Assembly: GCF_001894885.1 (NCBI RefSeq)
Contig: NZ_BCXB01000011.1
Coordinates: 1-64,000, forward strand
Direction of reading: 5' to 3'
DNA: 64,000 bases
Origin: Rhodococcus marinonascens NBRC 14363
GTDB lineage: Bacteria > Actinomycetota > Actinomycetes > Mycobacteriales > Mycobacteriaceae
The notes under the pieces were generated by a model. The model worked only from the letters and a program-made list of their open reading frames with translations, did not search any database and had not been told where the DNA came from. Below, one piece after another: positions 2,501-61,811 of this stretch; the stretch's first letter is position 1; each line of letters begins with the position of its first letter. The translations under genes were made by a program, and so were the position numbers.

Positions 2501-3340
2501 CTAACCAGACTCTCCGGAACCGACGGTGACGAAGTCGACCAGTTGTTCGACCGCTCCGATCAGCGGCGCTTCCAGATCGCGGAAATTGTTGACGGCAGAA
2601 TAGATTCGCCGCCAACCGTCCCGCGGAGTCCCCCAGCCCAACTGCCTACACACACCCGTCTTCCAATCCTCACCACGCGGGATCTTCGGCCACGCGTCGA
2701 TGCCCACCGTCGAAGGTCGGACGGCTTCCCAGACATCGATGAACGGATGCCCTGTCACCAGCACGTGGGGCCCGAGCCCCTCGGTCAGGTGGGTCTCCTT
2801 CGAGCCGGTCACCAAGTGATCGACGAGCACTCCGACGCGCCGACCTGGGCCGGGACGGAATTCTCCCAGCCGATCCGCGAGATTGTCGAGTCCCTCGAGA
2901 TGTTCAACGACGACACCCTCGACGCGGAGGTCGTGACCCCACACGCGTTCCACGAGGGCGGCGTCGTGGACGCCCTCCACCCAGATGCGGCTCTCCAGAG
3001 CCGTCCGCGCACGCAGCCCCTCCACCTTGGTGGAGCCCGACGCAGATTTCGTCCGTGCCGGACCGGGCGACTTCGGTGTCGGCCGCGCCAGAGTCACCGG
3101 CGTGCCGTCGATCAGGAACGCCGCCTCACGCATCGCGAACAACCGGGTCCGGCTGGCACCGTCCTCCAACCGGACGAAGTCGCCGTCGTACGTCCTCTCG
3201 AACCCCACCACTGCACCACAGAAACCGGTGCCCGCATCCTCGACTACCAGGTCGCGGTCCGCGGCCACCGTGGGAACCACCTGCTTCCTCTTCCGGAGAT
3301 GTCCGGAAAAGATGTCGCCGTATCTGTCGCCTCCGCTCAC
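2501..3340 (-). CDS. DUF3097 family protein (Rv1486c-like)
   Basis: A conserved actinobacterial protein of unknown function; with the GTG at 3340 it has 279 residues. The N-terminus begins SGGDRYGDIFSGHLRKRKQV, and conserved blocks include WVEGVHDAALVERVWGHDLR, VGVLVDHLVTGSKET and HVLVTGHPFIDVWEAV. The WVEG, HDA and DHL blocks recall Toprim-like nuclease or primase folds, but that is only an impression. An upstream in-frame start at 3385 would leave only about 20 bp to the divergent gene, so I prefer 3340. It is first in the operon with the NfeD-like and SPFH genes. Confidence 0.85.
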   Translation of the reverse strand: MSGGDRYGDIFSGHLRKRKQVVPTVAADRDLVVEDAGTGFCGAVVGFERTYDGDFVRLEDGASRTRLFAMREAAFLIDGTPVTLARPTPKSPGPARTKSASGSTKVEGLRARTALESRIWVEGVHDAALVERVWGHDLRVEGVVVEHLEGLDNLADRLGEFRPGPGRRVGVLVDHLVTGSKETHLTEGLGPHVLVTGHPFIDVWEAVRPSTVGIDAWPKIPRGEDWKTGVCRQLGWGTPRDGWRRIYSAVNNFRDLEAPLIGAVEQLVDFVTVGSGESG

Positions 3341-12960: not shown

Positions 12961-14157
12961 TTGGCGACACTGGCGATTCCGGCGATGTGCTATGCCCCCG
13001 GCTTCCTCCTGGGCACCTCCAACAAACCCCGCGAAACACAGTCCCAGATTCCCGTGCAGGTGCTGGCCCAGAACGGGTATCCCGATCTGGCGAACACGAT
13101 GCAGGGAAAGCAGAACGTCAACGCCAAACAGCGAGACGGCTTCTACGACATGGCCCGCCGGTTCCTCTCAACGTTGGACGAGCCCCGCTACGAGGAAACG
13201 ATCCTGCCTAACACTCGGATCACGATCGGGACCGGCAGCAACGGCAGAATCACCATCAACCCGGGACGTGAGGTCCACGACCTGCCCGAACTCGATATCG
13301 AGCACGTCGTGCGCAGCACCGACACCGTCTACGCGATGAGCAAGAACGGTCCCGGGTCCGCGTCCGCGCTCACCACGGCCCTGGTCGGGGCAATCGGGGA
13401 CGCCGCCCTCGAATACGGTGCCCAGCACACCAGCGGGCGTCTGCCGATCCCGGCGGTGATGGTCCTCGACGAGGCCGCGAACATCTGCAAATTGCAGCAA
13501 CTCCCCGACTGGTACTCCCACTTCGGTAGCCGCGGCATCGTCCTGATCACCATCTTGCAGTCGCCCTCGCAAGCGAAGAAGGTGTGGGGGGAAACGAACT
13601 TCGCGGGCATGCTCGATGCCTGCAACATGCTCTGGTACGGCGGCAACGTCCAAGACCGCGAATTTTTGGCCGCCCTGTCCGACGAGATCGGTGACCACCA
13701 CGTGCAGACCGAATCCCGCAGCCGGGACGCCGGCATTCTGGGCAATGGTCAATCCACGGTCAGCACGTCCTGGCAGAAGGAGAAGATCCTCACCGTCGAC
13801 GAACTCAAGGCACTCCCACAGCGGAGGACGATCGTCACGATGGGCGGATCCAAACCGTTGCTGGTCAGGAAGAACTTTTGGGGCGATACCCGCTTCGCCG
13901 ACGACATCACACGGTCACTCGCCGAATGCGCCGCCGACGTCGACCGGGCCGAGCAGAAAGCACTCCCGCCCGGGATCTCCGACCGGGCTGCGGCGACGGA
14001 GGTCACCGGCCCGATACCACGTATCGACACCCTTACCGAAAAGGATCTGGGCGCACTCCCCGCCGATCAGGTCGACGGGCAGACCGGCCCGCCGGCTCCC
14101 GCCCACACCCTCGACGACATCTTCGACTCCGAATTCTTCGCGGAAGGAACACCCTGA
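12961..14157 (+). pseudogene. Type IV coupling protein (TraG/VirD4-like), C-terminal fragment
   Basis: This 398-codon frame encodes the second half of an actinobacterial coupling protein that feeds DNA to the conjugation channel. Seen are IEHVVRSTDTVYAMSKNGPG, Walker B AVMVLDEAANICKLQQLPDW, SHFGSRGIVLITILQSPSQA and GMLDACNMLWYGGNVQDREF. No Walker A (GxxGxGKS/T) precedes them. A stop (12958-12960) lies directly upstream, and a short CYAPGFLLGTSNKPR block is joined to QVLAQNGYPDL in a way that suggests a second internal deletion. Full-length relatives are about 500-650 residues. It overlaps the next gene by one base. Confidence 0.75.
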
Positions 14158-14735
14158 TGAAACTCGACACCGCCGAAGCAGGCTGGGACACCGCCGACGA
14201 AACCGGGTATCAGAACCCGGACGACTACGACCCCACCGACCCCGGCGAGGACGAGAACAACGAAAACGCGGTAGCCGACACCGCCGACGGCGACGGCGAC
14301 GGCGGCGACGGCAAGGGCGACGGCGGCGACGGCAAGGGCGACGGCGGCGACGGCAAGGGCGGCAAGACCCAACCGATGTACGGCAGCGTCGTCGAGTGGG
14401 CCGAAGACTTCTTCACCCAGGTCATCCGCCGCCGCCTCGGTGCCGGAGGCGGCGAAGGCGGATTGGCCTGGGACGAACGCTGGTGGCTCTACCCCGAGGT
14501 CGCCGGCCGACTCAAAATCCTCTGGTACGCGTGGGAGGAAGCCCGCGTCTCCTACAAGGCATCCGCAATGTCCTCCTGGTGGATCCACCACCTCGAACCA
14601 CACCTGCGGGTGATCCTCGACGGCGAAACCGGTCCGATGGCCCACGCCAAACCCGACGGCTCGTTCTCCGGCTGGCCCGCCCTCCCACACCAACCCGTAC
14701 CGGAAGAGCTGCTTCCCGACCTGCTCGCCGACTGA
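14157..14735 (+). CDS. DUF4913 family protein of conjugative elements
   Basis: The 192-residue protein has a C-terminal DUF4913 domain with MYGSVVEWAEDFFTQVIRRR, ERWWLYPEVAGRLKILWYAW and WWIHHLEPHLRVILDGETGP. An acidic Asp/Gly-rich N-terminal half contains tandem GGDGKGD units. DUF4913 genes usually follow the coupling-protein gene in actinobacterial conjugative elements, and here the ATG overlaps the TGA of that fragment (TGATG). Function unknown. The frame is intact despite decay of its neighbours. Confidence 0.8.
   Translation: MKLDTAEAGWDTADETGYQNPDDYDPTDPGEDENNENAVADTADGDGDGGDGKGDGGDGKGDGGDGKGGKTQPMYGSVVEWAEDFFTQVIRRRLGAGGGEGGLAWDERWWLYPEVAGRLKILWYAWEEARVSYKASAMSSWWIHHLEPHLRVILDGETGPMAHAKPDGSFSGWPALPHQPVPEELLPDLLAD
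14304..14366 (+). repeat. Three 21-bp tandem repeats inside the DUF4913 gene
   Basis: The unit GGCGACGGCAAGGGCGACGG plus one C is repeated at 14304 and 14325, then partly at 14346, encoding Gly-Asp-Gly-Lys-Gly-Asp-Gly. All units are in frame and likely to vary in copy number by slippage. Confidence 0.85.
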
Positions 14736-14766: not shown

Positions 14767-14911
14767 TGTGTCCGTGAGTGCTTCGGCGAGTCCTGGGCCG
14801 ACATCTGGATTTCGGTTGTTAGCCTCCGATGGGCTGGTGTGCAGGCTTCGGAGGTCGGCCATCGTCACTGCACGGTTGATCCGTTTTGTTCCTCTCAGGT
14901 TGGAGAAAAAT
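14767..14911 (+). repeat. Conserved leader upstream of YVTN gene 1
   Basis: This stretch is repeated, with changes, before all three propeller genes. Shared blocks are GTGAGTGCTTCGGCGAGTCC (copies 1 and 2), TTTCGGTTGTTAGCCTC with GGGCTG, and a start-proximal block CACTGCACGGTTGATCCG - TTTTGTTCCTCT - GGAGAAAAAT ending at the GTG. Likely promoter plus 5' untranslated region; the regulator is unknown. Confidence 0.7.
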
Positions 14912-16000
14912 GTGAATCACCACAGGAGTTTCCGCGTGTATCCCACGGTCAGCGGCCGCGCCCGACGTCTGATGCTCGGGGTGACAACTATTTTCGCGAT
15001 GGCGCTCGGTATGGGCGGGGTGGGGGCGGCGACCGCCGCCGCCGATACCGTCATCGATACCATCCCCGTCGGGAACGCCCCGCAAGGGGTGGCGATCACC
15101 TCGGACGGGTCCCACGCCTACGTCACCAACATTGATGACGGCACGGTGTCGGTGATCGAGACCGCCGGCAACACCGTGGCCGCGACCGTCCCCGTCGGGG
15201 TTTCCCCCCTCGGGGTGGCGGTCACCCCGGACGGGTCCCACGCTTACGTCACCAACAGTGGTGACGGTTCGGTGTCGGTGATCGAAACCGCCGGGAACAC
15301 CGTGGCCACGACTGTGGCGGTCGGAAACAGCCCGGTCGGGGTGGCGGTCACTCCGGACGGGTCCCACGCTTACGTCACCAACCTTTTTGACGGTTCGGTG
15401 TCGGTGATCGAGACCGCCGGCAACACCGTGGCCACGACCGTCCCCGTCGGGGTTTTCCCGTTCGGAGTGGGGGTCACCCCGGACGGGTCCCACGCCTACG
15501 TCGTCAACAGTGGTGACGGTTCGGTGTCGGTGATCGAGACCGCCGGGAACACCGTCATCGACACCGTGACGGTCGGAGACAACCCCCGAAGGGTGGCGAT
15601 CACCCCGGACGGGTCCCACGCCTACGTCACCAACCGTGTCGGCAATTCGGTGTCGGTGATCGAGACCGCCGGGAACACCGTCGTCGACACCGTCCCGGTC
15701 GGGAACGACCCGGACGGAGTGGCGATCACCCCGGACGGGTCCCGCGTCTACGTCGCCAACGGTTCCGACGGTTCGGTGTCGGTGATCGAAACGGCCGGGA
15801 ACACCGTCATCGAGACCGTCCCCGTCGGGGTTTTCCCGCTCGGTGTGGCGATCACCCCGGACGGGTCCCACGCCTACGTCGCCAACCGTGACGACGGCAC
15901 GGTGTCGGTGATCGCCATCGAGACGTGCCTCGGATCGCTGTGCCTCGACTTCGGCTCGTTGACGGGCAGCGGCTCGGGCGCGGGCAGCGTCTTCAGCTGA
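14912..16000 (+). CDS. Secreted YVTN-family beta-propeller protein 1
   Basis: The 362-residue exported protein has a signal peptide (basic start, then MLGVTTIFAMALGMGGVGAA, cleavage near ATAAAD). Seven repeats of about 42 residues follow, each with pattern GVAVTPDGSHAYVTN...VSVIETAGN, giving a seven-bladed YVTN/NHL-type propeller. A tail with two Cys (CLGSLCLDFGSL) and GSGSGAGSVFS ends it. The start is GTG at 14912, preceded by GGAG. The blades are nearly identical at DNA level. No catalytic motif is seen; surface binding or wall association is a guess. Two paralogs lie at 16241 and 59494. Confidence 0.88.
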   Translation: MNHHRSFRVYPTVSGRARRLMLGVTTIFAMALGMGGVGAATAAADTVIDTIPVGNAPQGVAITSDGSHAYVTNIDDGTVSVIETAGNTVAATVPVGVSPLGVAVTPDGSHAYVTNSGDGSVSVIETAGNTVATTVAVGNSPVGVAVTPDGSHAYVTNLFDGSVSVIETAGNTVATTVPVGVFPFGVGVTPDGSHAYVVNSGDGSVSVIETAGNTVIDTVTVGDNPRRVAITPDGSHAYVTNRVGNSVSVIETAGNTVVDTVPVGNDPDGVAITPDGSRVYVANGSDGSVSVIETAGNTVIETVPVGVFPLGVAITPDGSHAYVANRDDGTVSVIAIETCLGSLCLDFGSLTGSGSGAGSVFS

Positions 16001-16028
16001 CACCCACACGGGAGAGGCGGCAGACCAC

Positions 16029-16064
16029 CCCAGCACATGTGCGGGGCACCGCACGGGTGCTGGG
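16029..16064 (+). terminator. Hairpin downstream of YVTN gene 1
   Basis: CCCAGCAC pairs with GTGCTGGG, and inside it GTGCGG pairs with CCGCAC. It lies 29 bp after the stop codon, with no clear T-run. Probable terminator. Confidence 0.5.
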
Positions 16065-16103
16065 TGCTGGGTGCTCGATCAGGCCTCGTAATGGTCTAGT
16101 GGC

Positions 16104-16240
16104 CGTGAGTGCTTCGGCGAGTCCTGAGACGACATCGGGATTTCGGTTGTTAGCCTCTCCTGGGCTGGTAGTCGGATCCGATCACCAGTTGTGCCACTGC
16201 ACGGTTGATCCGTTTTGTTCCTCTGAGGCAGGAGAAAAAT
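16104..16240 (+). repeat. Conserved leader upstream of YVTN gene 2
   Basis: Second copy of the leader seen at 14767-14911. It is near-identical over GTGAGTGCTTCGGCGAGTCC, GGATTTCGGTTGTTAGCCTC and the final 50 bp through CACTGCACGGTTGATCCG to the GTG start. The middle section (16171-16195) differs. Confidence 0.7.
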
Positions 16241-17206
16241 GTGAATCGCCACACTGGTTTTCGCGGGTATCCCACGGTCAGGGGACGCACCCGACGTGTA
16301 ATGCTCGGGGTGACCGCCACGGTCGCAATGGTGCTCGGTATGGCCGGAATGGGGGCGGCGACCGCGGCAGCGGACACCGTCATCGCCACCATCCCGGTCG
16401 GGGTCAACCCGGTCGGGGTGGCGATCACCCCGGACGGGTCCCGCGCCTACGTCACCAACCTTAATGGCGCCACGGTGTCGGTGATCGACACCGGCACCAA
16501 CACCGTGGCCGCGACCGTCCCGGTCGGAAGCCCGTTCGGGGTGGCGATCACCCCGAACGGGGCCTTCGCCTACGTCACCAACATCGGTGCCAACACGGTG
16601 TCGGTGATCGACACCGGCACCAACCTGGTGGTCGGCCCGCCCATCCCGGTCGGGAACGCCCCGCAGGGGGTGGCGATCACCCCGGACGGGGCCTTCGCCT
16701 ACGTCACCAACCAGTCGGACGGCACGGTGTCGGTGATCGACACCGGCACCAACCTGGTGGTCGGCCCGCCCATCCCGGTCGGGGCCAACCCGATCGAGGT
16801 GGCGATCACCCCGGACGGGGCCTTCGCCTACGTCACCAACATCAATGACAACACGGTGTCGGTGATCGACACCAACACCAACACCGTGGCCGCGACCGTC
16901 CCGGTCGGAATCGGCCCGATCTGGGTGGCGGTCACCCCCGACGGGTCCCGCGCCTACGTCACCAACCAGTCGGACGGCACGGTGTCGGTAATCGACACCG
17001 GCACCAACACCGTGGTCGAGACCGTCCTGGTCGGGAGCAACCCGCAGGGGGTGGCGATCACCCCGGACGGGGCCCGCGCCTACGTCACCAACTTCGATGA
17101 CGGCACGGTGTCGGTGATCGCGATCGAGAAGTGTCTCGGGTCGCTGTGCTTGGACTTCGGTTCGTTGACCGGCAGCGGCTCGGGTGCGGGCAGCGTCTTC
17201 AGCTGA
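16241..17206 (+). CDS. Secreted YVTN-family beta-propeller protein 2
   Basis: The 321-residue paralog has a signal peptide (VMLGVTATVAMVLGMAGMGA), six YVTN repeats of about 42 residues (pattern GVAITPDG.xAYVTN...VSVIDTGTN), and the same C-terminal tail (CLGSLCLDFGSL, GSGSGAGSVFS). One blade fewer than its paralogs suggests loss of a unit by repeat recombination. Two blades carry LVVGPPIPVG instead of TVAATVPVG. The GTG at 16241 has GGAGAAAAAT directly upstream. It is a tandem duplicate of gene 1, 240 bp downstream, with its own leader and terminator. Confidence 0.88.
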   Translation: MNRHTGFRGYPTVRGRTRRVMLGVTATVAMVLGMAGMGAATAAADTVIATIPVGVNPVGVAITPDGSRAYVTNLNGATVSVIDTGTNTVAATVPVGSPFGVAITPNGAFAYVTNIGANTVSVIDTGTNLVVGPPIPVGNAPQGVAITPDGAFAYVTNQSDGTVSVIDTGTNLVVGPPIPVGANPIEVAITPDGAFAYVTNINDNTVSVIDTNTNTVAATVPVGIGPIWVAVTPDGSRAYVTNQSDGTVSVIDTGTNTVVETVLVGSNPQGVAITPDGARAYVTNFDDGTVSVIAIEKCLGSLCLDFGSLTGSGSGAGSVFS

Positions 17207-17243
17207 CACCCGCACCGTAGAGACGAATGATGCTGTAGCCGAA

Positions 17244-17280
17244 TGACGCCGCCACCCCGGCCGTGAGGGTGGCGGCGTCA
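17244..17280 (+). terminator. Terminator hairpin of YVTN gene 2
   Basis: TGACGCCGCCACC (17244-17256) pairs perfectly with GGTGGCGGCGTCA (17268-17280). The same sequence in the same orientation follows the third YVTN gene at 59431-59475. Confidence 0.8.
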
Positions 17281-49044: not shown

Positions 49045-50007
49045 GTGCTGTATCGAGGGTTCCTGAGCGTGGTAGACCGTCTGCCCCTTCCATCGCTGAC
49101 CACGCAGCGTGTCATCGCGTTCGCGGTAATACTCACGCAAGGTGGGATCGCCGTCACCGGAGCCGTCGTGAGGGTGACGGCGTCCGGTCTCGGCTGTCCC
49201 ACCTGGCCGCAGTGCTTCCCCGGAAGCTTCGTACCGGTCGGGCACGGCGAGGTCGCGGTGATTCATCAGGCGGTCGAGTTCGGGAACCGCTTGCTGACGT
49301 TCGTCGTCGTCGCGGCCGCCGCCCTGATCGTTCTGGCGGTCACCCGCGCGCGCCGCAGGAATGAAGTCCTCGTCTACGCGTGGATGATGCCCCTCGGCAC
49401 CGTCATGCAGGCCGTCATCGGCGGAATCACGGTCCTGACCGGCCTGCTCTGGTGGACGGTCGCGGTGCATCTACTCGCCTCGATGGCGATGGTGTGGCTG
49501 GCGACAGTGATGTACGCGAAGATCTGCGAACCGGACGACGCGCAAGCGGTCGACGTGATCCGAGGTCCACTGAGGTGGCTTACTGCCCTGTCCGGCGTCG
49601 CACTGGCCGGCGTGCTTGTGGCCGGGACGCTCGTGACGGGTGCTGGACCACACGCGGGGGACAAGAGCGTCGACCGAGTCGTTCCCCGTCTCCAAATCGA
49701 GGTCGTCACGCTCGTCCACCTTCACGCACAGCTACTGGTGGGCTACCTGGCACTACTGATCGGCCTGTGCTTCGGCTTGTACGCCGTCGGGACCACTCGC
49801 GCGGTGAAGATACGTGTGCAGGTCCTTATCGGACTGGTGGTGGCGCAGGCACTGATCGGAATCGTCCAGTTCTTCACGGGCGTTCCCTCGGTTCTCGTGG
49901 CCTTCCACGTGGCGGGGGCCGGGTTGTGCACAGCGGCAACCGCCGCGGTATGGGCTGCGGGACGCACTCGGAAGCACGTCACGCAACCCGACACCGCGAG
50001 GGTCTAG
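49045..50007 (+). CDS. ctaA: Heme A synthase (CtaA/COX15)
   Basis: Membrane enzyme oxidising heme O to heme A for cytochrome aa3. The 320-residue product has eight predicted helices and the conserved segments GGIAVTGAVVRVTASGLGCP with TWPQCFPGSF, HQAVEFGNRLLTFVVV (heme His), HLLASMAMVWLATV, and VTLVHLHAQLLVGYLALLIG. A Cys pair lies on the first extracytoplasmic loop (GLGCPTWPQC). GTG at 49045. The stop overlaps the end of the convergent small gene. Confidence 0.92.
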   Translation: MLYRGFLSVVDRLPLPSLTTQRVIAFAVILTQGGIAVTGAVVRVTASGLGCPTWPQCFPGSFVPVGHGEVAVIHQAVEFGNRLLTFVVVAAAALIVLAVTRARRRNEVLVYAWMMPLGTVMQAVIGGITVLTGLLWWTVAVHLLASMAMVWLATVMYAKICEPDDAQAVDVIRGPLRWLTALSGVALAGVLVAGTLVTGAGPHAGDKSVDRVVPRLQIEVVTLVHLHAQLLVGYLALLIGLCFGLYAVGTTRAVKIRVQVLIGLVVAQALIGIVQFFTGVPSVLVAFHVAGAGLCTAATAAVWAAGRTRKHVTQPDTARV

Positions 50008-59049: not shown

Positions 59050-59493
59050 CGCCCTCATCGGCGGGGATCCTCATCCTCCTCCGTGGGTGGCACAGCGGAG
59101 ATATGCGAGTCCCGTTCCCGCGGGGATCGCGTCACATGGCAACTGGTGGTGACCCGACCGGCACGCCGTACGCTGACGCCAGCCCTCCCCCTTGCCCCGA
59201 TGCCCTCTCGCCAGTAACCCGGACTGCCCGCGCAATGACTCATTTCGCCCCTCCCTCAAAGTTCGCCGGAAACGCTGTGGCTCTCTACCGGTGTGACCCA
59301 GTACTTGTTTTGACCCCGTAGTTGGTATGACGCGGGGGCGAAGGGTTCGGTTCCCATCGCTTGCAAGAAAGTTCGCGCTTTTTGGGGGATCGACACGTTC
59401 GTTCCCGGCATCGAGAATGAGCCGTCGGAACGAGTGACGCCGCCACCCCACGGTCGGGGGTGACGGCGTCACTCGAGCACTGCGGTGCGAGCG
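59050..59493. other. Intergenic region between pgl and YVTN gene 3
   Basis: 444 bp between convergent genes, no CDS supported. The right part holds the terminator of YVTN gene 3; nothing recognisable is seen in 59060-59430. Confidence 0.6.
59431..59475 (-). terminator. Terminator hairpin of YVTN gene 3
   Basis: An approximately 19-bp stem with one mismatch joins CGAGTGACGCCGCCACCCC to GGGGTGACGGCGTCACTCG. Read on the minus strand, its TGACGCCG...GGTGGCGGCGTCA matches the terminator after YVTN gene 2. Confidence 0.85.
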
Positions 59494-60588
59494 TCAGCTG
59501 AACGTGCTACCCGCCCCCGAACCGCTGCCGGTCAACGAGCCGAAGTCGATACAGAACGATCCGAGGCACCTCTCGACCGCGATCACCGACACCGTGTCGT
59601 CCAAACGGTTGGTGACGTAGACACGGGCCCCGTCCGGGGTCACCGCGACGCCGGACGGTCCGCCCCCCACTGCGACAGTATCGATGACGGCGTTGTCGGC
59701 TGTGTCGATCACCGACACCGTGTTGTCAACACCGTTGCTGACATAGACGCGGGAGCCATCCGGGGTCACCGCCACCCCGGACGGGCTGTCCCCGACCGTG
59801 ATGGTGTCGATGACGGTGTTGCCGGCGGTCTCGATCACATCCACCGTGCCATCACTAAGGTTGGCGACGTAGACACGGCCGCCGTCCGGGGTGACAACCA
59901 CACCCCGGGGGAGGTTCCCGACCGTGACGGTGTCGTCGACGGTGTTCGTACCGGTGTCGATCACCGACACCGTGCCGACACTATTGTTGGCGACGTAGAC
60001 GCGGGACCCGTCCGGGGTGACCGCCAGTTCGTTCGGGGCATCTCCGACCGTGACGGTAGCGTCCACCATGTTCGTACCGGTGTCGATCACCGACACCGAG
60101 TCGTGACCACTGTTGGCGACGTAGATGTAGGACCCGTCCGGGCTCGCCGCCACACCGGACGGGCCGTTCTCCACCGTGACGGTGGCGTCAACCACGTTCG
60201 TACCGGTGTCGATCACATCCACCTCGGCGTCACCAGCCTTCGCAACGTAGACGTGGGAGCCGTCCGGGGTGACCGCCACCCCGACCGGCAAGGCCCCGAC
60301 CCCGAGCGGAATGGCGGTAAGCTCCGTGTTTGTGGAGGTATCGATCACCGACGCCGAATTTCCCGAGAAGTTGCTGACGTAGGCGCGGGACCCGTCCGGG
60401 GTGACTGCCACCCCGAGCGGCCGGATCCCGACATCGATGGTGTCGATGACGGTGTCCGCTGCTGCGGCCCCCGCCCCCAAGCCGGCCATACCCAGCACCA
60501 TCGCCGAAACAGCTGCCAACCCGAACATCAGACGCCGGGCGCGTCCCCGAATCGTAGGGAAGCCGCGGAAACTCCTGTGGTGATTCAC
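59494..60588 (-). CDS. Secreted YVTN-family beta-propeller protein 3
   Basis: The 364-residue third paralog lies 42 kb from the tandem pair. It has a signal peptide (LMFGLAAVSAMVLGMAGLGA), seven repeats of about 42 residues (VAVTPDGSRVYVSN...VSVIDT), and the same tail (CLGSFCIDFGSL, GSGSGAGSTFS). Repeats are more diverged than in gene 1, suggesting an older copy. GTG at 60588 with CAGGAGAG upstream; the leader and terminator are homologous to those of its paralogs. It stands alone between pgl and an orphan gene. Confidence 0.88.
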   Translation of the reverse strand: MNHHRSFRGFPTIRGRARRLMFGLAAVSAMVLGMAGLGAGAAAADTVIDTIDVGIRPLGVAVTPDGSRAYVSNFSGNSASVIDTSTNTELTAIPLGVGALPVGVAVTPDGSHVYVAKAGDAEVDVIDTGTNVVDATVTVENGPSGVAASPDGSYIYVANSGHDSVSVIDTGTNMVDATVTVGDAPNELAVTPDGSRVYVANNSVGTVSVIDTGTNTVDDTVTVGNLPRGVVVTPDGGRVYVANLSDGTVDVIETAGNTVIDTITVGDSPSGVAVTPDGSRVYVSNGVDNTVSVIDTADNAVIDTVAVGGGPSGVAVTPDGARVYVTNRLDDTVSVIAVERCLGSFCIDFGSLTGSGSGAGSTFS

Positions 60589-60700
60589 ATTTCTCTCCTG
60601 ACTCAGAAGAACGAAGCGGATCAACCTGGCAGTGGGCCAACCGACTATCGGATCAACACAGCAGCCCAGGGGAGATTAACAACCGAATCGAGGTTCCAAC
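60589..60700 (-). repeat. Conserved leader upstream of YVTN gene 3
   Basis: On the minus strand it reads TTCGGTTGTTAATCTC, CCTGGGCTG, then CACTGCCAGGTTGATCCG, CTTCGTTCTTCTGAG and CAGGAGAGAAAT before the GTG, aligning with the leaders at 14767 and 16104. Confidence 0.7.
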
Positions 60701-60803: not shown

Positions 60804-61811
60804 TTACTCCTGCGGCAACAGTCTCGAGCCGTCGAACCACGCCGAGCGCGGGGCTTTGGACGCCAGGACATAGCCTGCGCTGAAGAGGGAGCCGTCAACC
60901 TCGGTGACCGTGCCCTGGCGGTGATGTCTGCCCCAATCCTGGAACCGCACCTGCTCGCCCACCTCTGGTGTGCGGACCTCCGGCACGGCCCGGACCCACT
61001 GGGGATACATCGACTTCTCGATCACCTCATAGCTGTCCTGTTTGAAGCCGACAATCCGCACCTTCACCCGCGACCGGGTGGTCGAGACGATCGTGCCGAC
61101 CCGATATGCGGGACTGCCGAGCTGCACGATGTCGCCGACCCTCACCGTGCCGTCGGCAATCATCGCCTCGGACACGGCAACGAACTCCCGTCGCGCCTGG
61201 CGGAGCGCATCCTGCTGCTCGAAGATCTCGGCGGCGTGTAGGGCCGCACCCTCGATACAGGAGTCGCCGCGACCCTCGCACTTACCCGCGTGCATCTGCC
61301 AGGTCGAATGCTTGCGCGGATTCACGCCGACAGCCCGCAGCGCGGTAGTTTCCTCGATGGATAGATCGTCCGCGGTGGCGCCGCGGGCCAGATCCTTCGC
61401 GGCTTCGAAAGCGATGTCCGCGACGAGGTCCGGGTCGGCACCCCGGAAGTGCGTCTTGCCGGACTCGAGGTTGCGCTGGACTCTTTCGGTCTGCAGCAGT
61501 TCCCGGTGCTCCTCCTCGACGCGGCGGGTCTCGTTCCTGGATTGGTTTTCGGCGCTCCGCACCGCCTTGCCTGAGAGCAGTCCAGATGACCACTGCGGCA
61601 TCGGCTCGGTACCGTCGAGCCAGCGCTTGGCGCGATTGTCGACCAAAGGTTCTGCGAAACCGTTCGCTGACTTGGCCGCGGCCAAGTCAGCGACCCGCAG
61701 CCCCAACTTATTCGCCACTGCAGGCGGGCAGAGCGCGCGGTCGGCGCGCCGCTTCCGCCGGCGTGCTTTGTTGCCTGCCTTCCTGCTGCCTGCGGTGGCG
61801 TTGTCGTCCAT
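60804..61811 (-). CDS. Orphan hypothetical protein
   Basis: The 335-residue soluble protein has a basic start (GNKARRRKRRADRA), a charged helical region (NETRRVEEEHRELLQTERVQ), a short Cys-containing block HAGKCEGRGDSCIEGAALH, and a C-terminal half of short SH3/KOW-like strands (GDIVQLGSPAYRVGTIVSTT, GEQVRFQDWGRHHRQGTVTE). I do not recognise it. The beta-rich segments suggest a nucleic-acid or chromatin-type binding module, but that is a guess. It lies between YVTN gene 3 and ppc on the same strand. Confidence 0.65.
   Translation of the reverse strand: MDDNATAGSRKAGNKARRRKRRADRALCPPAVANKLGLRVADLAAAKSANGFAEPLVDNRAKRWLDGTEPMPQWSSGLLSGKAVRSAENQSRNETRRVEEEHRELLQTERVQRNLESGKTHFRGADPDLVADIAFEAAKDLARGATADDLSIEETTALRAVGVNPRKHSTWQMHAGKCEGRGDSCIEGAALHAAEIFEQQDALRQARREFVAVSEAMIADGTVRVGDIVQLGSPAYRVGTIVSTTRSRVKVRIVGFKQDSYEVIEKSMYPQWVRAVPEVRTPEVGEQVRFQDWGRHHRQGTVTEVDGSLFSAGYVLASKAPRSAWFDGSRLLPQE

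Follow-up and report, generated by a model that had tools for sequence, protein, structure and literature searches.

The stretch of DNA analysed here (the window) comprises the first 64,000 bp of contig NZ_BCXB01000011.1 of Rhodococcus marinonascens NBRC 14363 (assembly GCF_001894885.1) and contains three genes for predicted secreted YVTN propellers. According to sequence and profile matches, gene 1 (14912–16000, + strand) encodes a protein of 362 amino acids with seven repeats, and gene 2 (16241–17206, + strand) one of 321 amino acids with six repeats, its alignment being one blade short. Gene 3 (59494–60588, − strand; 364 amino acids, seven blades) is located between orf335/ppc and pgl. All three genes begin with a GTG codon about 10 bases downstream of a GGAG. 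An earlier interpretation made from the nucleotide letters alone (the sequence-only reading) had proposed that a signal peptide, a propeller body and a C-terminal tail are common to the three genes. The reading frames, the letters of the tails and the stretches matching the YVTN model TIGR02276 (seven, six and seven stretches in genes 1, 2 and 3, with 286, 223 and 278 bits against a cut-off of 27.85) all bore this out. The gene 3 protein shares 62–63% identity with the other two; for its product, the only one modelled, a closed propeller with four-stranded blades (28 strands in all) was predicted with high confidence at residues 46–337, and gene 2 has six repeats.

Each gene is preceded by a conserved leader, located at 14803–14911 (+) for gene 1, 16134–16240 (+) for gene 2 and 60589–60695 (−) for gene 3. 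The leaders of genes 1 and 2 share 82% identity across 198 bases, and one sequence model (R1), which counts all three among its 80 training leaders, matches them at 14803–14919, 16134–16248 and 60581–60695 with E values of 5e-26, 2e-29 and 3e-22, respectively, so that the shared leader noticed in the sequence-only reading is real. Based on sequence and alignment A1, the leaders contain an extended −10-like element, which reads TGTTAGCCT in genes 1 (14817–14825, +) and 2 (16148–16156, +) and TGTTAATCT in gene 3 (60673–60681, −). An upstream element, TTCGGCGAGTC, was assigned by its sequence, family count and spacing at 14782–14792 (+) in gene 1 and 16113–16123 (+) in gene 2. Within the family, the corresponding motif TCGGYGnnT occurs in 49 of 81 leaders (by genome 10/21, 6/18, 17/21 and 16/21) compared with 9 of 1,198 control windows, and 41 of the 49 occurrences lie 32 or 33 bp upstream of the −10 element.

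The genome containing the window (G000; 4.92 Mb in 156 contigs) and a complete 4.4 Mb genome of the same genus (G007) were compared as one lineage with R. spongiicola and R. xishaensis as the other, and relatives were searched in 61 genomes (G000 and 60 relatives). G000 contains 97 stretches matching gene 2; since 19 of its contig ends lie inside a propeller match or no more than 10 bases from one, this count is a lower bound and the true number is probably higher. Only G007 was comparable to G000 among the 61 genomes (64 and 72 among the matches listed; the next genome had 23). Searched alone, G007 yielded 87 matches, and R. spongiicola and R. xishaensis, described from marine sponges according to a reference title, yielded 84 and 48. 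Frames with YVTN motifs numbered 131, fragments included (43, 34, 30 and 24 by genome), and 63 of 74 complete proteins have seven blades as judged by length. From their sequences, the three window genes thus belong to an expanded family of exported YVTN propellers with dozens of copies in four related Rhodococcus genomes. No paper on such an expansion with uniform leader and tail was found in the literature by title; the propeller fold and the kind of system are already known.

Among the 131 YVTN frames, 93 started where expected and had sufficient upstream DNA. Twelve of their leaders were dropped by eye, eight being another type of start region and four belonging to apparent family genes with upstream DNA unlike the leader (L137_13196, L139_4818, L151_7470 and L153_12837). 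A further leader, from an identical pair within an array, was omitted, leaving 80 for alignment, and L157 and L160–L163 are outside the counts. The consensus consists of TGnTA[GA]CCT, placed about 95 bases ahead of the start, a box near ACTGCAnGGTTGATCCGTTTTGTTCCTC, the ribosome site GTAGGAGA, and AATGTGAATC. A sequence-only leader model found 31, 23, 24 and 22 copies in the four genomes, 100 in total with 31 in G000, and a set of three genes, as initially proposed, is therefore far too small: each genome carries 22–31 leader-bearing copies. The model found none in the 59 other relatives, where stricter filters were applied and no more than 59 candidates per genome were scored, so that weaker relatives could be missed, and none in Lolliginicoccus lacisalsi or Prescottella agglutinans. 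A wider regulon was rejected because no match away from propellers was found in G000 and G007 (compared by eye, with a model trained on propeller leaders). A coding function of the leader was also rejected: an upstream frame is open in the three window genes, but a one-base change in spacing breaks it in relatives (G061_L137_5331). Rfam gave 0 matches in the window at the gathering score.

Several other propeller types were observed. A degenerate short copy in G007 (L121, ~2600–3250, −) has kept leader and tail and has stops in the start frame. A second propeller subfamily forms the array L103, one end of which is a contig end; its members differ in their start region and have PGG(E) as the linker preceding CTGSACFGFGS. 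Longer propellers with an extra C-terminal region and other Gly/Ser tails (GSAGGVFGS, PWGSFAGS) are encoded in L089 (1331–2683 and 3682–5058), L092 and L140.

Leader conservation was assessed with 74 complete genes (7 of 81 were dropped as open or short). Between the two lineages, leader similarity corrected for alignment bias amounts to 0.38–0.43, compared with 0.01–0.15 for the silent sites of opcA and pgl (8 comparisons), which for opcA, pgl and ppc still reach 0.27–0.43 between G000 and G007. The DNA at −260 to −170 (0.01–0.04) and downstream of the genes (0.05–0.15) is hardly similar between lineages. In the adjacent signal-peptide region, silent sites reach 0.28 between lineages and the leader there 0.57, a value uncorrected for alignment bias. 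The conservation is patchy, with islands of ~90% (the −10-like element and the ribosome site) beside stretches of 58%. The leader thus looks constrained, because core silent sites are nearly saturated between lineages while leaders stay similar, and its conservation exceeds neutral divergence as measured by opcA and pgl. Whole-gene silent sites were set aside as a neutral yardstick since they are far more alike between lineages than core silent sites, a choice in favour of constraint, as is our view that the blades have been homogenised by recombination or exchange. Leaders and whole-gene silent sites alike could have been kept similar by such homogenisation or by interspecies DNA exchange.

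A possible start-site hairpin pairs the leader box with the ribosome site and start codon. It can be drawn at 14877–14919 (+) for gene 1, at 16206–16248 (+) for gene 2, where it lies outside the best single-sequence fold of the leader, and at 60581–60623 (−) for gene 3, where the best single-sequence fold differs in part. In the family, 91.5% of the cells of this 16-pair hairpin are paired, compared with 49–64% when it is slid, and one pair shows changes on both sides in 31 leaders, perhaps through a single event. In a shuffle control, the covariation score was 0.190 against 0.173 (2 of 500 shuffles), and 36 cells against 15.5 had changes on both sides (0 of 500). RNA thermometers free the ribosome site on warming; folding prediction for 20 of the 80 leaders gave a probability of 0.10 to 0.12 for an unpaired ribosome site, flat from 10 to 42°C, and so lent no support to temperature sensing. 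At their other end, genes 2 and 3 are followed by terminator-like hairpins (17245–17279, +, and 59436–59470, −), in line with the common terminator described in the sequence-only reading. Such hairpins lie 3′ of 38 of 86 family genes and in 3 of 518 control windows. A similar hairpin at ~49147–49184 lies away from any propeller.

The C-terminal tail reads CLGSLCLDFGSLTGSGSGAGSVFS in gene 1 (15926–15997, +), consists of identical letters in gene 2 (17132–17203, +), and reads CLGSFCIDFGSLTGSGSGAGSTFS in gene 3 (59497–59568, −), where it is predicted to be disordered; the consensus of the three is C-L-G-S-[LF]-C-[LI]-D-F-GSLTGSGSGAGS-[VT]-FS. CxGSxC is present in 68 of 74 proteins, and 70 of the 74 have no other cysteine after residue 46, which suggests that the two residues form a small disulfide loop. 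Across 26 tails of 24 residues from G000 and G007, amino acid identity is 85–86%, compared with 61–67% for the whole protein, whereas silent sites (0.55–0.70 observed, 0.48–0.57 expected) are slightly above chance. Since the amino acids are kept while the silent sites diverge, the tail is, by this comparison of codons, under protein-level selection. For the same reason, recent gene conversion alone is not favoured as the source of tail homogeneity; an early concerted change of the tails may have occurred. Tails with at least 22 residues after CxGSxC end in FS in 27/27 cases in G000 and G007 and in 0/35 in R. spongiicola and R. xishaensis. On the tree of the propeller bodies, tail-type labels (12 of 74 proteins unlabelled) require 9 changes compared with 20.3 for shuffled labels. 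The tails therefore sort by lineage although the bodies interleave: the rows of G061, G062 and G007 are mixed as with shuffled labels and those of G000 somewhat clustered (9 changes against 12.9), in a rough tree with 28 of 70 inner branches open and an unsettled bootstrap. Propellers of Lolliginicoccus have a related CTGS[LI]C...GS end and no leader match, and the tail may thus be older than the leader.

G000 contains 32 tail matches at E ≤ 1. A CxGS[LF]C DNA pattern, which requires a TCN serine codon and so misses variants, had 32, 28 and 4 matches in G000, G007 and Lolliginicoccus, of which 30, 25 and 2 were at propellers (by eye). In six of the seven remaining matches in these three genomes the motif is never at the end of an exported protein, and in the seventh (G000, C26:10341) a stop codon lies inside it. 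The tail was accordingly found in no unrelated exported protein of G000, G007 or Lolliginicoccus, and its confinement to one family is evidence against a general sorting function, which was rejected. Of the proposed specific sorting or anchoring tail, protein-level selection and, in these genomes, restriction to propellers stand. A loose GSLGSLGS pattern was uninformative (7 matches, 4 in the reversed control). One propeller of Prescottella agglutinans (L044) ends in a long GSLGSS repeat tail.

Genes 1 and 2 adjoin a TraG/VirD4-type coupling-protein frame (12961–14157, +), partial relative to Pfam (positions 299–448 of the 468 of T4SS-DNA_transf), and a DUF4913 domain (14379–14699, +). All four DUF4913 matches of G000 above the cut-off lie within ~220 bp of a propeller, and a fifth, below the cut-off, within ~620 bp. 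In G007 no propeller lies within 180 kb of the DUF4913 matches, and no match to the TraG-type or DUF4913 gene was found in R. spongiicola and R. xishaensis. Some propellers of G000 hence lie on, and may have spread with, what by its gene content is a conjugative-type element. The conjugative element named in the sequence-only reading agrees with the neighbours of genes 1 and 2; most copies of the family were not found beside such an element. The TraG–DUF4913 genes recur beside propellers on several G000 contigs (window 12961–14735; L104, L110, L077 and L160), and the coupling-protein frame of the window (398 amino acids) is shorter than an open frame of 825 residues on contig C50. The surroundings of gene 3 differ: pgl has propellers beside it in all four genomes (gene 3, two G007 copies, and arrays of 8 frames in R. 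spongiicola and 10 in R. xishaensis), which indicates that this locus is old. Both pgl and opcA were found with the arrays of the latter two species, and ppc was not found in the array stretches fetched from them. The 335-amino-acid gene between ppc and gene 3 (60804–61811) has no Pfam match, and in G007 (L156, 8349–9116) tblastn recovered it only in several pieces.

Taken together, we consider it reasonably probable that the family is a co-regulated, diversified set of exported propellers which act on or outside the cell surface, are probably anchored there, and bind ligands. Most copies share a control region, which is proposed to combine an extended −10-type promoter, in many cases preceded by an activator-like element ~33 bp upstream, with a 5′ untranslated region able to cover the ribosome site and start codon by folding; the copies would consequently be switched together. 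The protein would be exported via its signal peptide and its propeller would present the blade loops, which differ between copies, on one face. The disulfide-closed Gly/Ser tail would hang off the closed propeller and probably fix it in or on the mycolate envelope, so that the copies could serve as a repertoire of co-regulated binding proteins at the surface or outside the cell. The set would have grown by tandem duplication at old loci, such as that next to pgl, and in G000 partly beside conjugative-type element genes. Within the blades, variation is concentrated in two loops, which we take to share one propeller face, as is generally the case in propellers. Compared with 48 blades of other organisms (loci L042–L075, one from Prescottella), the variable loop sites have almost the same diversity, while most other sites are more conserved.

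A number of observations weigh against this interpretation. The leaders were picked by eye before alignment, so the conservation figures describe recognisable leaders, and the upstream motif was defined after viewing them and occurs in only 10/21 in G000 and 6/18 in G007. Whole-gene silent sites, which mostly represent blades, reach 0.33–0.44 between lineages and so are as similar as the leaders; this weakens the argument for constraint. Among reciprocal best pairs, the leader exceeds the whole-gene silent sites in 10/12 (R. spongiicola/R. xishaensis), 4/6 (G000/G007), 0/5, 0/2 and 4/8. Common regulation, as the sequence-only reading derived it from leader conservation, accordingly agrees with the opcA/pgl and signal-peptide silent sites, which the leader exceeds, but not with the whole-gene silent sites. 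The start-site hairpin was drawn from one of the tested sequences; compared with shuffles, neither the number of pairs with changes on both sides (4 against 4.0) nor that of additional pair types exceeded chance, and paired cells differed little (91.5 against 90.4%). Leader folding energies are ordinary compared with shuffles (mean z −0.4 and −0.6 for 80 leaders; −0.2 to −1.2 for 5 leaders). The same loop sites are also variable in unrelated YVTN propellers, and diversifying selection on the loops is for this reason not claimed. Neither a partner of the tail nor a regulator was found.

Part of this evidence would fit a passive repeat family, in which leader, gene and terminator were copied as a unit and the likeness stems from duplication, recombination between copies and interspecies exchange, without any dedicated regulation or sorting. 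The equal similarity of leaders and whole-gene silent sites is what such copying would produce, as are the near-random DNA at −260 to −170 (0.01–0.11), a pair of identical paralogues in one array, the copies beside conjugative-type element genes, and tails that sort by lineage while bodies interleave. The bodies, however, are old, with end branches of median 0.46 changes per column and well-supported pairs that cross species, and simple copying explains neither the patchiness of leader conservation, nor its excess over adjacent signal-peptide and core silent sites, nor the retention of tail amino acids at diverged silent sites. We therefore regard this explanation as unlikely.

A still less probable alternative is that the copies are building blocks of a surface layer or envelope, redundant structural units of one coat and not a binding repertoire. 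The best PDB sequence match and the top structural match (the structures being chains that Foldseek ranks high) are an archaeal surface-layer protein, and a common leader and tail would fit one assembly. Short-tail copies, however, differ by 33–39% in protein sequence, and variable loop sites whose diversity comes close to that of blades from many phyla would likewise be odd for one lattice. PDB 1l0q, presumably a Methanosarcina surface-layer YVTN protein, is a YVTN propeller close to the window proteins but is archaeal and has a PKD domain (entry title), whereas the three window proteins lack PKD matches at E ≤ 0.001, end in a CxGSLC Gly/Ser tail and are encoded behind a leader shared by dozens of bacterial genes. 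A family of secreted lactonases or YncE-like enzymes with varied substrates is very improbable: the proteins match Pfam Lactonase (E 3e-15 to 2e-25) and YNCE above cut-off, but Lactonase matches are expected of YVTN propellers in general, the equivalog models remain far below their cut-offs (7_blade_YncE 90, 85 and 94 against a curated 400 bits; PRK11028 33–37 against 370), and the variable loop sites lack a single fixed residue.

Compared with known systems, the co-regulated set of exported propellers resembles Escherichia coli YncE in its seven-bladed propeller (PDB 3vgz, E 6e-22); YncE is a single-copy periplasmic protein, and the window proteins score below the cut-off of its equivalog. 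The PE_PGRS/PPE proteins of mycobacteria likewise form large, dispersed, partly repeat-built and exported families in the Mycobacteriales, but the Rhodococcus propellers differ from them in their fold, signal peptide and common leader, and PE or PPE domains are absent from the Pfam matches of the three window proteins. LPXTG and PEP-CTERM sorting tails, which combine a motif, a hydrophobic helix and basic residues, are also short C-terminal modules kept across exported paralogues; the propeller tail differs by lacking a long hydrophobic stretch, a basic end or a predicted helix, and by the restriction of CxGSLC to propellers (three genomes, DNA pattern).

Large exported repeat families in the Mycobacteriales are hard to interpret, and the propeller family has a simple fold, while its control region and tail are uniform, which would make co-regulation and anchoring testable with one promoter and one tail. 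It may also serve as a natural collection of dozens of related propellers whose loops differ, and as a case of a protein tail that differs as a set between two lineages while the carrier proteins interleave on the tree. A more far-reaching and at present doubtful possibility is that a group of Rhodococcus including sponge isolates displays 25–30 diversified surface propellers per genome under one dedicated transcription factor and a start-site RNA hairpin. Their Cys-loop Gly/Ser tail would then have changed as a set at the lineage split to fit a lineage-specific envelope partner, and conjugative elements would have spread further copies.

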